Below are positions 17,811 to 21,088 of a DNA stretch of 64,000 nt, one piece after another. The stretch covers positions 248,001 through 312,000 of the forward strand of contig NZ_BCNX01000003.1 in NCBI RefSeq assembly GCF_001571405.1. The letters run 5' to 3'. The position numbers and the translations under genes were made by a program. How positions within the stretch are numbered: the first letter of the stretch is position 1; each line of letters starts with the position of its first letter. The notes beneath the pieces are model-generated. The model was given only the letters and a program-made list of their open reading frames with translations. It did not search any database and was not told the DNA's origin. This DNA is from Methanoculleus thermophilus (lineage in GTDB: Archaea; Halobacteriota; Methanomicrobia; Methanomicrobiales; Methanoculleaceae).

Positions 17811-20450
17811 GTGATACGCGAACCGTCAGTCAAAAAAGTCCTCTACTGGTGCGATCAGTGCAACGTCCCTCTCATTGGACGCACCTGTGCCTGCAAGACG
17901 CGCACAAGAGAGGTTCCGCTCCTGCAGCCGTACGATGTCCGCCCCGCCCTTGCGGCGGATATGGCTCTCATCCGGCGGCTTCTTGCGGAGCGGTTCGGTG
18001 ATGTCCCCCTGCCCCACGTCGTGCTCTTAAACAAGACCGGGGGCACCGACCGGGCCGACCTCGTGATCGTGCACGGCGAGCGGTTCGGCTGGCTCACGTT
18101 CGATCCGGTCTCCCGAAAATTCAGCCTTGATATCGCTCCCGAAGCCCTCTCGTACATCCTGCCGCATGCAACCCGGGGGATCATCGACCTTGAGGCCGAA
18201 CCCGCAGTGATTGCCCATCGGGGGCGTATCGGTGGAAAACGATTCCCCTTAAAAGACCCTGTTCCCGACGGGACGGTCATCGTCGCCTACAAGAACCGGT
18301 TCGGCACCGGTGTCGTCAGGGACGGCCAGGTCCGGGTGAAGGACCTCGCCCCCATCACACCCCGGACCCGGTCCAATCCGGACTGGGAAGTGGTGATCGA
18401 GAAGAACCGCTACCACTTAAAGAACCTTGAGAGGAATGCAATCCGGACCATCAAGAAGCACATGAACGACCGGCCGTGCGTCAACGTCTCGTTCTCCGGC
18501 GGCAAGGACAGCACCGCCGTCCTCCATCTCGCCCGAAAGGCCGGGGTGGAGAAGGCGTTCTTCATCGATACCGGGATCGAACTCCCCGAGACGGTGGAGT
18601 TCGTGGCCTCTCAGGGAGTCGAGATCATCCAAAAAGGCGGCGACTTCTTCCAGGCGGTCGAGAAGGCCGGGCCGCCTGGGAAGGACCACCGCTGGTGCTG
18701 CAAACTCTTAAAACTTCACCCCTTAAAGATCTACCTCGCCGGCACCGGCCCCTGCGTCACGATCCAGGGGAACCGGTGGTATGAGTCCTGGAACCGGGCT
18801 GAGCTCGACGAGACAAGTCAGAATCCGGCAAATCCGCTGCAGTTGAATATCTCACCGATCCGGAGCTGGCGGGCGCTCGAGGTCTTCCTTTACCTCTGGT
18901 GGCAGAAGGTCCCAATAAACCCGCTTTACGATATGGGCCTTGAGCGGATAGGCTGTTACCTCTGCCCGGCGGCACTCGAGAGCGAGTACGAGGGTCTCCG
19001 CGTGATGCACCCTGAACTGACAGACCGCTGGGACGAATTCCTTATCAGGTGGGCGGAGAAGAATGGGCTGCCGGAGGCCTATCACCGCTGGGGACTCTGG
19101 CGGTGGCGGGCACTGCCCCCGAAGATGCGCGAACTCTGCAGGGAGTGGGGTATCGGCGTGAATGACGACTTCACTCTGAAGGAGGACCCGGCAAGAAAGA
19201 GGGCGGAGGTGGCAACGACGAAGACGATGGAGACCCATAAGCCGGCACCGCCGGCCGAGACTGAGTTTACTCCCGATCAGATCCGGAAGGACTTCCCGAT
19301 CCTCGGCGACATCATATACCTCGACAATGCAGCGACGAGTTTCTCACCGGAACCGGTGGTGAATGCATTCGTCGAGTTCGAGCACAATTACCGGGCGAAC
19401 GTCGGGCGGGGTGTCCACCGCCTGACCCGGATCGCGACGCAACGCTACTGGCACGCCCACGAGAAGGTGGCCCGGTTCATCGGCGGGGAGGCGGGGTTGA
19501 CGGTCTTTACGAAGAACGCCACCGAGGCAATAAACATGGTCGCGCAGGGGCTCTCTTGGAAGCCGGGTGACCGTGTGGTGACCACAATCCTGGAGCACCA
19601 CTCAAACCTCCTCCCCTGGCGGATGCTGGCAAAGCAGGGGGTCGCGCTCGACGTGATCGGGATCGACGCCGATTATGAGCTCGATCTTGCGGCGCTTGAG
19701 AAGATCCTCTCCGGGGGCAGCGTCCGGCTCGTCGCCGTCACTCACGCCTCAAACGTCCTCGGCGTGGTAACGCCGATCCAGAAGATCGCAAACCTCTGCC
19801 GGGAGCACGGCGCCCTCTTCCTGGTGGACGGAGCGCAGTCCCTGCCGCACATGCCGGTCAACGTGCGAGACCTCGGCTGCGACTTCCTCTGCTTTGCAGG
19901 GCACAAGATGTTCGGGCCGACCGGGACCGGGGTCCTCTGGATGCGGGATCTCCTCCTCGAGCCCCCGACCCTCGGCGGCGGCATGGTCACGAGCGTGACC
20001 GTGGAAGGTTACGATCCGGCGGAGGGCTACCAGCGCTATGAGGCCGGGACGCCGAACGTCGGGGGCGGGATCGCGCTCGGCGTCGCCGTGGATTATCTTG
20101 CGGCGATCGGCATGGAGAAGATCCACCGGCACGAGGAGCGCCTGACCGCCCGGCTGATCGAGGGGCTCTCCGCGATAGACGGGGTCACGGTCTACGCCGG
20201 GAAAGACCCGCATACCCGGATCGGGGTTGTCTCGTTCACCATCGACGGCATCCACCCGCAGGAGGTCGCGCAGATGCTCGACGAGGAGGCGGATATCATG
20301 GTGCGGTCGGGGCACCACTGCTGCCAGCCGCTGATGGAGCACCTCGGCCTCCCGGAGGGGACGGTCCGGGCGAGCATGGCGGCCTACACGACCGAGCAGG
20401 AGATCGACCTCCTGATCGCGGCCGTCGACGAGATCAGCCGGGGACGGTAG
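17811..20450 (+). CDS. PP-loop (PAPS reductase family) / cysteine desulfurase fusion protein
   Basis: An 879-residue two-enzyme fusion. The N-terminal part has a zinc-finger-like cluster (C14, C17, C26, C28), a region about 80-200 that may be PUA-like, then the PP-loop SFSGGKDSTAVL (about residues 226-237) of the PAPS reductase/ATP pyrophosphatase family. The C-terminal part (about 490-879) is a SufS-type cysteine desulfurase: LDNAATSFSP, the PLP lysine in AGHKMFGP (about 695), and the active-site Cys in GHHCCQP (about 833). Such desulfurases take sulfur from cysteine as a persulfide. The fusion suggests direct sulfur hand-off to a substrate adenylated by the PP-loop domain. That is inference; sulfate reduction is the conventional label. 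The start is GTG 17811. Confidence 0.85.
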   Translation: MIREPSVKKVLYWCDQCNVPLIGRTCACKTRTREVPLLQPYDVRPALAADMALIRRLLAERFGDVPLPHVVLLNKTGGTDRADLVIVHGERFGWLTFDPVSRKFSLDIAPEALSYILPHATRGIIDLEAEPAVIAHRGRIGGKRFPLKDPVPDGTVIVAYKNRFGTGVVRDGQVRVKDLAPITPRTRSNPDWEVVIEKNRYHLKNLERNAIRTIKKHMNDRPCVNVSFSGGKDSTAVLHLARKAGVEKAFFIDTGIELPETVEFVASQGVEIIQKGGDFFQAVEKAGPPGKDHRWCCKLLKLHPLKIYLAGTGPCVTIQGNRWYESWNRAELDETSQNPANPLQLNISPIRSWRALEVFLYLWWQKVPINPLYDMGLERIGCYLCPAALESEYEGLRVMHPELTDRWDEFLIRWAEKNGLPEAYHRWGLWRWRALPPKMRELCREWGIGVNDDFTLKEDPARKRAEVATTKTMETHKPAPPAETEFTPDQIRKDFPILGDIIYLDNAATSFSPEPVVNAFVEFEHNYRANVGRGVHRLTRIATQRYWHAHEKVARFIGGEAGLTVFTKNATEAINMVAQGLSWKPGDRVVTTILEHHSNLLPWRMLAKQGVALDVIGIDADYELDLAALEKILSGGSVRLVAVTHASNVLGVVTPIQKIANLCREHGALFLVDGAQSLPHMPVNVRDLGCDFLCFAGHKMFGPTGTGVLWMRDLLLEPPTLGGGMVTSVTVEGYDPAEGYQRYEAGTPNVGGGIALGVAVDYLAAIGMEKIHRHEERLTARLIEGLSAIDGVTVYAGKDPHTRIGVVSFTIDGIHPQEVAQMLDEEADIMVRSGHHCCQPLMEHLGLPEGTVRASMAAYTTEQEIDLLIAAVDEISRGR

Positions 20451-20764
20451 GGCTGGCCCTCTCAATTTCTTGAACCCACAATTTTTCAGTAATTGCAACT
20501 AGCCGTGTTCTAATTGGAACGGTGGCTGTATAATCCACAAGTCGAGGTAAATACTCCTGAACACTGCCGATTTTAGGCATACGCAGTGACCGAAGCGAGA
20601 GAAGATTTATCGCCAATTAAGGGTGGGCGATGGGCGGAACGCGCGGAGTTCAAGCACCATTGGGTGAGAGAAGCGGCACCGTCCATTACAGAATGAAGTT
20701 TCTACCAGTCGAATGATCGGTAAAACCCCGGTGCACTGGACCGTGGGGATATCGCAATAGGGGG
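20451..20764. other. Intergenic region, no gene seen
   Basis: The stretch lies between the fusion gene and a NadE fragment. A 60-codon open frame on the minus strand (up to 20616) matches nothing I know. It is AT-richer than its neighbours around 20470-20620, which can mark decayed or acquired DNA. No tRNA or strong hairpin is seen. A GCGGAGTTCAAGC sequence near 20640-20656 resembles one inside the NadE fragment near 20985, possibly a short duplication remnant. Confidence 0.3.
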
Positions 20765-21088
20765 TTGAACCGAAAGCATCCCGTCATCCCCGAACGGGTG
20801 CTCGAGAAGCCCCCCTCCGCGGAGCTCAGGCCCGGCCAGACCGATCTTGAGACCCTCCCTCCATATGACCTCCTCGACGCCATCCTCTACCGCTACGTTG
20901 ACTGCTCTGAGTCGCCGGAGGAGATCATCGCTGCCGGCTACCCGGCGGAAAACGTCTATCGGGTCATCCAGATGGTTCATTCGGCGGAGTTCAAGCGTCG
21001 GCAGGCCGCACCAGGGCTCAAAGTGAGTGGGAGATCCTTTGGTGTCGATTGGCATATGCCGATCGCCGCTAAACCCTGGTGGCGCTGA
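20765..21088 (+). pseudogene. nadE: NAD+ synthetase (NadE) C-terminal fragment
   Basis: About 107 codons that match only the last part of glutamine-dependent or ammonia-dependent NAD+ synthetase: the KPPSAELRPGQTD motif, YDLLDAILY, then the FKRRQAAPGLKVS and RSFGVDWHMPIA ending. The ATP-binding PP-loop and the rest of the synthetase domain are absent, and stop codons precede the fragment. It cannot be an active enzyme. Its TGA overlaps the ATG of the next gene (TGATG), so if transcribed it could be translationally coupled to it. The reading frame remains intact, suggesting recent decay or a retained small product. Confidence 0.72.

Follow-up and report, generated by a model that had tools for sequence, protein, structure and literature searches.

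A PP-loop and SufS-type fusion protein of Methanomicrobiales as a candidate two-part sulfur-transfer protein

In the window (the whole 64,000-nucleotide stretch of Methanoculleus thermophilus DNA analysed here), we identified an 879-residue protein in which a PP-loop domain of the PAPS_reduct fold is fused with a SufS-type cysteine desulfurase domain. With roughly even confidence, we read it as a two-part sulfur-transfer protein rather than a working reductase of sulfate assimilation, in which the SufS half would feed both FdhD and an N-terminal half acting as a thiolation enzyme. The SufS half would load a persulfide from L-cysteine onto Cys837 and pass it in trans to FdhD, which would equip the Mo/W cofactor of formate (or formylmethanofuran) dehydrogenase with its sulfido ligand. 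The SufS half would also hand sulfur to the N half, which would bind ATP, adenylate a substrate, probably RNA, and thiolate it through a predicted [4Fe-4S] cluster. The fusion would thus be a shared local sulfur supply, with a relay between the halves convenient but not obligatory. Such a hub would help explain Mo/W-cofactor sulfuration of formate dehydrogenase in these methanogens and would offer a candidate enzyme for an archaeal thiolation step not yet accounted for.

The architecture itself is already published, and only the functional reading would be new. A methanogen "APS/PAPS reductase" with a C-terminal cysteine desulfurylase domain appears in Yu et al. 2018 (PMC6286981), and a CysH-SufS fusion restricted to Methanomicrobiales (cluster 536) in an archaeal fusion/fission survey (mSystems 2024, PMC11237513). 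Both entries have the same architecture and come from the same group as the window fusion. They were named after the PAPS_reduct domain, and the available portions of the two papers report no other function, no link to FdhD and no loss of SufS residues.

Architecture and conservation of the fusion

The fusion comprises the following features, in window coordinates.

17811..20450, + strand: complete fusion ORF, 879 aa, GTG start, TAG stop
17847..17894, + strand: predicted N-terminal metal cluster, residues 13-28, W-C-x2-C ... C-x-C (54-homolog alignment)
18093..18356, + strand: PUA-like region, residues 95-182 (Pfam PUA in homologs at the aligned place; strands in the model)
18483..18971, + strand: PP-loop domain of the PAPS_reduct fold, residues 225-387 (Pfam, predicted structure, structure matches)
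18495..18512, + strand: canonical PP-loop S229-G-G-K-D-S234 (invariant, 54 homologs)
18696..18701, + strand: C296-C297, first half of the predicted cluster-binding quartet (C296 invariant, C297 conserved in at least 90% of 54 homologs)
18954..18965, + strand: C382-x-x-C385, second half of the predicted quartet (invariant, 54 homologs)
19152..19268, + strand: variable interdomain linker, residues 448-486, about 38 residues (alignment, dN/dS, model)
19269..20447, + strand: SufS-type cysteine desulfurase domain, residues 487-879 (Pfam, NCBIfam-type profile scores)
19596..19598, + strand: His596, LEHHSN motif of the SufS active site (SufS alignment)
19905..19907, + strand: Lys699, PLP lysine, AGHKMFG (SufS alignment)
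20319..20321, + strand: Cys837, persulfide cysteine, SGHHC (SufS alignment)

A preliminary description of this DNA had proposed a single uninterrupted frame of 879 codons, an SGGKDS PP-loop motif and a complete SufS-type domain with PLP lysine and active-site cysteine. All of these were borne out: the frame occupies 17811-20450 (+), S229-S234 are invariant in 54 homologs, and Lys699 and Cys837 are accompanied by His596. Its N-terminal zinc cluster held in part, as C14, C17, C26 and C28 are invariant in the alignment of 54 homologs, with zinc suggested by the cysteine pattern only. No clear ribosome-binding site precedes the GTG start at close distance, and in many relatives Met is encoded at the following position.

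Pfam domains on the window protein were PAPS_reduct (225-387, E 1e-34) and Aminotran_5 (502-868, E 6e-124). The frame shows a strong coding signal: across four comparisons, the N half had a dN/dS of 0.10-0.13, the SufS half 0.11-0.23 and the linker 0.29-0.56, with purifying selection on both halves and a weaker constraint on the linker. The host genome is 2.2 Mb in size and 99% complete. Since full-length fusions of 861-981 aa were found in many other genomes of the order, the fusion is confirmed as real, and chance or an assembly artefact is excluded.

The SufS half is 63% identical to the standalone SufS of the same genome and missed the TIGR01979 cut-off (424.9 vs 475.1 bits). The standalone SufS was also under it (397.4 bits), so "SufS-type" is used here as a domain label and not as strict membership. 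The fusion shares the catalytic His, Lys and Cys with SufS cysteine desulfurases, that of the LarE-SufS-FdhD operon described below included. By sequence, the C half is a predicted SufS-type cysteine desulfurase with intact catalytic residues.

The N half was modeled with a mean pLDDT of 94.0 and a pTM of 0.92. Its best structural matches were FAD synthase, CysD and APS/PAPS reductases (Z 16-20; the reductases at Z 16-18), followed by GMP synthetase, LarE, TtuA and NcsA (Z 12-14), a fold match being no demonstration of function. Pfam PUA was matched in 14 of 54 homologs and, at the aligned place, in the paralog of the window genome (E 5e-20), with no match in the window protein itself. The structural matches listed mostly cover the PP-loop domain, so the absence of a PUA fold among them carries no weight. 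Profile comparison of the fusion clade with the PUA region of ferredoxin-fused orthologs (hhalign E 2e-10) shows that the window protein carries what appears by sequence to be a divergent version of this region. Methanogen proteins of the PRK13795 type (NF010366) have the same N half, and their Methanosarcinales-type copy lies beside the fusion clade in the tree; however, they have a ferredoxin-like C terminus instead of SufS, and the window fusion is under the NF010366 cut-off (401 vs 745 bits).

Genomic association with fdhD

FdhD is an accessory sulfurtransferase for Mo/W formate dehydrogenase. In 23 of 28 whole-genome loci with flanks of up to 1.5 kb, its gene (PF02634) was present no more than about 1.5 kb from the fusion, and it lay by the fusion also in G005 and G035 (wider flanks) and in G309 and G403 (by coordinates), although the genomes behind these counts are related and not independent. 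The pairs span six families of the order, are convergent as well as co-directional, and persist where orientation or outer neighbours have changed. Relatives of the SufS domain that stand alone likewise adjoin fdhD, both in Methanomicrobiales and in other orders, and the SufS-fdhD pairing therefore probably predates the fusion. In E. coli, a cysteine desulfurase provides FdhD with the sulfur for the bis-MGD cofactor of formate dehydrogenase (PMC12140954). The context described here makes FdhD a likely acceptor of the fused SufS half. It is the best-supported acceptor, absent from the preliminary description and a new clue here.

In the window genome, fdhD is not adjacent to the fusion. Positions 20451-21088 of the window, where congeneric genomes have fdhD, hold a frame of 107 codons that matches NAD synthase over its final third only (PF02540 167-242), likely a gene remnant at a rearrangement breakpoint. 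A separate LarE-SufS-FdhD operon is present elsewhere in this genome, with NCBIfam scores above the cut-offs (LarE, 308 vs 150 bits; FdhD, 187 vs 141 bits). It is a second module of PP-loop protein, SufS and FdhD, whose PP-loop partner, LarE, belongs to another family than the fused PP-loop protein. At this locus (L060, G000:C7:230000-243000), the segment 3798-9331 contains a ThiF-family gene, NifS and the tight LarE-SufS-FdhD operon.

Linker, separability and history of the halves

In the full-length model, linker residues 461-484 are disordered (pLDDT <50), the two halves do not pack and the pTM is 0.55, the input alignment having only 42 rows; no fixed contact between the halves is thus predicted. 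In one locus (L061, genome G005), the linker is expanded by tandem ESRTTP/ESRATP units.

Catalytic residues were intact in 32 of 34 aligned fusion rows. In genome G026 the fused SufS lacks the active-site Lys, Cys and His, and in G356 it has Gly at the catalytic Cys position, whereas the N half keeps its invariant residues in both. Each of these genomes also encodes a standalone SufS adjoining fdhD. Degeneration of the fused SufS beside an intact N half suggests that a desulfurase in trans can probably serve the N half. In G026, genes for SufS, FdhD, a ThiI-like protein, a Cys/Met PLP enzyme, SepCysS and the fusion with degenerate SufS occur within approximately 20 kb (L143-L144, G026:C7:218000-248000).

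The preliminary description proposed an intramolecular sulfur relay from cysteine to an activated substrate. As an essential, obligatory mechanism such a relay is unsupported, given the orthologs that are not fused, the flexible linker and the loss of catalytic residues in the SufS half of two fusions. It is possible in the window protein, in which all predicted catalytic residues are intact, but is not an essential feature across the fusion family.

The preliminary description had also proposed listing the genomes in which the fusion occurs, and most Methanomicrobiales genomes searched carry it in full length; none was found outside Methanomicrobiales among the matches listed. The N half alone, unfused, is present in several genera, and some genomes hold both fused and unfused copies. 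Separate reading of the two halves, which would have spoken against a joint role, is not seen in the window, where both lie in one frame, but unfused or re-split halves do occur elsewhere.

A tree of the N half had three parts. One is the fusion clade of Methanomicrobiales, with an unfused group at its base; another is a ferredoxin-fused copy from other families of the phylum (Methanosarcinales-type by annotation and size); the third is a clade to which the second gene (paralog) of the window genome belongs, among others. The branching order of these parts is unsettled because the tree is midpoint-rooted. Fused SufS domains form one clade (support 100/99), within which L069, where a stop splits the fusion, and L132, where the halves are adjacent genes, are nested. 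The simplest history is therefore one fusion followed by re-splitting, and the halves apparently fused once and split again later. Breaks in or near the linker were also seen in L041 (TAG), L030 (TAG) and L054 (frame change); some of the breaks, in draft genomes, may be sequencing errors. In L134 and L135, the 360-400 residues that precede the N half looked like spurious open frames and not added domains. The neighbouring thiM in two Methanoregula loci, and grpE-dnaK-dnaJ or purH (named by eye) by the basal unfused group, seemed to reflect local synteny and were not used.

Function of the N-terminal half and alternative readings

The features expected of a [4Fe-4S]-dependent PP-loop tRNA thiolase (TtuA, NcsA, TtcA, archaeal ThiI), an intact PP-loop and cluster-type cysteines, are present in the N half (S229-S234, C296, C382 and C385 are invariant; the cluster is predicted). 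Together with the PUA-like region, they suggest an ATP-dependent thiolation enzyme, perhaps acting on RNA. TtuA/NcsA and LarE share the PP-loop fold (Z 12-13), intact PP-loop and cluster-type cysteines with the N half, but differ from it in Pfam family, cysteine placement and the putative RNA-binding module. Neither the ThiI family (PF02568) nor ATP_bind_3 (PF01171) was among the domain matches of the window protein; ATP_bind_3 was matched weakly in 7 of 54 homologs (best E 0.0019). The window genome encodes ThiI (TIGR00342) and candidates for the TtuA/NcsA type (ATP_bind_3), so a tRNA substrate of the N half would be another modification. The archaeal s2C32 synthase was listed as "to be determined" in a 2017 review (PMC5372739), which makes s2C32 a candidate and nothing more. 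One speculative extension, unlikely in our view, is that the PUA/PP-loop half, its ferredoxin-fused and unfused orthologs and the paralog constitute an unrecognised archaeal thiolation enzyme, for example 2-thiocytidine-32 synthase, and that one desulfurase is shared with FdhD in Methanomicrobiales. If true, RNA thiolation would be linked to Mo/W-cofactor sulfuration in this order. In five genomes (L148, L149, L151, L152, L154), a few genes separate the ferredoxin-fused ortholog from threonyl-tRNA synthetase, and a class-I amidotransferase and AlaRS lie near the paralog; the neighbourhood of ThrRS to the Methanosarcinales-type ortholog and that of the paralog were both too weak as substrate clues.

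CysH enzymes have a C-terminal catalytic cysteine in an ECGLH-type tail. This tail was absent from the window protein (by eye), and no invariant or at least 90% conserved Cys was found after residue 385 in 54 homologs. The protein might still be an APS/PAPS reductase of assimilatory sulfate reduction, its fused desulfurase supplying or recycling sulfur for the same pathway, and this we consider rather improbable. Its PF01507 domain has the PAPS_reduct fold (Pfam, and reductase structures as above), the CC...CxxC of the N half resembles the cluster-type APS reductase 2goy in alignment, and full-length APS kinase was found in two related genomes (G034 and G039, of 41). However, at the aligned place the window protein has SGGKDS versus SGAEDV in 2goy, and the profile check of CysH placement suggested in the preliminary description left it under both cut-offs, those of phosphoadenylyl-sulfate reductase NF002537 (56 vs 154 bits) and APS reductase TIGR02055 (52.6 vs 235 bits). 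In addition, no ATP sulfurylase (Sat type) was found in the 41 genomes. APS_kinase matches in 39 of them were partial (approximately 20-27 bits, first 45-80 positions) and were not counted, those of the window genome (G000) reaching 21 bits. The only PF01507 proteins found in the window genome were the fusion and its paralog, leaving no CysD. A Methanocaldococcus jannaschii homolog was reported to be a PAPS reductase (Cho 2013, as cited in PMC6286981 and PMC10322725). The source of APS/PAPS is described as unclear in Yu 2018 as well. With no sulfate-activation enzyme found, a canonical PP-loop, the CxxC pair followed by no conserved Cys and the cut-offs missed, the PAPS-reductase label fits poorly. 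Sulfur-transfer genes around the protein or its SufS relatives likewise speak for a probably misleading annotation, and reductase function in the window organism is unlikely. The label seems to credit Methanomicrobiales with a sulfate-assimilation step although no source of its substrate was found. The earlier suggestion that it may hide a thiolation enzyme thus stands as regards the label, while thiolation by the N half is a prediction.

The halves could also have no functional relation, a desulfurase that serves FdhD having become attached to a PP-loop protein by chance, through a neutral tether. The apparently single fusion with later re-splitting by stops or a frameshift in the linker, the unfused N halves of several genera, the loss of SufS residues in G026 and G356, and the unpacked halves with their variable, weakly constrained linker all agree with this. 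On the other hand, most of the searched genomes of the order have retained the fusion, and nearly all aligned rows have intact catalytic residues; both halves belong to sulfur-transfer chemistry, and in the LarE-SufS-FdhD operon a desulfurase of this family is paired with a different PP-loop enzyme. We regard an accidental tether as doubtful. Much more remote is a role in DNA phosphorothioation, in which the SufS half would act as DndA/SspA and the PP-loop half as DndC/SspD/BrxP. PADLOC matched SspA and DndA over the SufS half and BrxP (E 5e-37) and SspD (4e-11) over the PP-loop half, and in type-4 BREX a cysteine desulfurase accompanies a PAPS-reductase-like protein (PMC12839542). The combination in BrxP plus desulfurase and in SspD/SspA resembles the fusion; however, those are separate defence proteins acting on DNA, whereas here there is one fused protein, order-wide and vertically inherited, unlike a patchy defence system. 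DndC reached only 20-24 bits over the PP-loop, and no other phosphorothioation gene was recognised among the identified neighbours of the fusion. The preferred sulfur-transfer reading has points against it too: the M. jannaschii report, the reductase-type Pfam and structure matches, the non-adjacent fdhD of the window genome, its ThiI and TtuA/NcsA-type candidates, and the PUA domain not detected in the window protein. Open frames of 741-814 codons related to the PP-loop half were present in L121, L122, L123, L126 and L127 and may be BrxP relatives.
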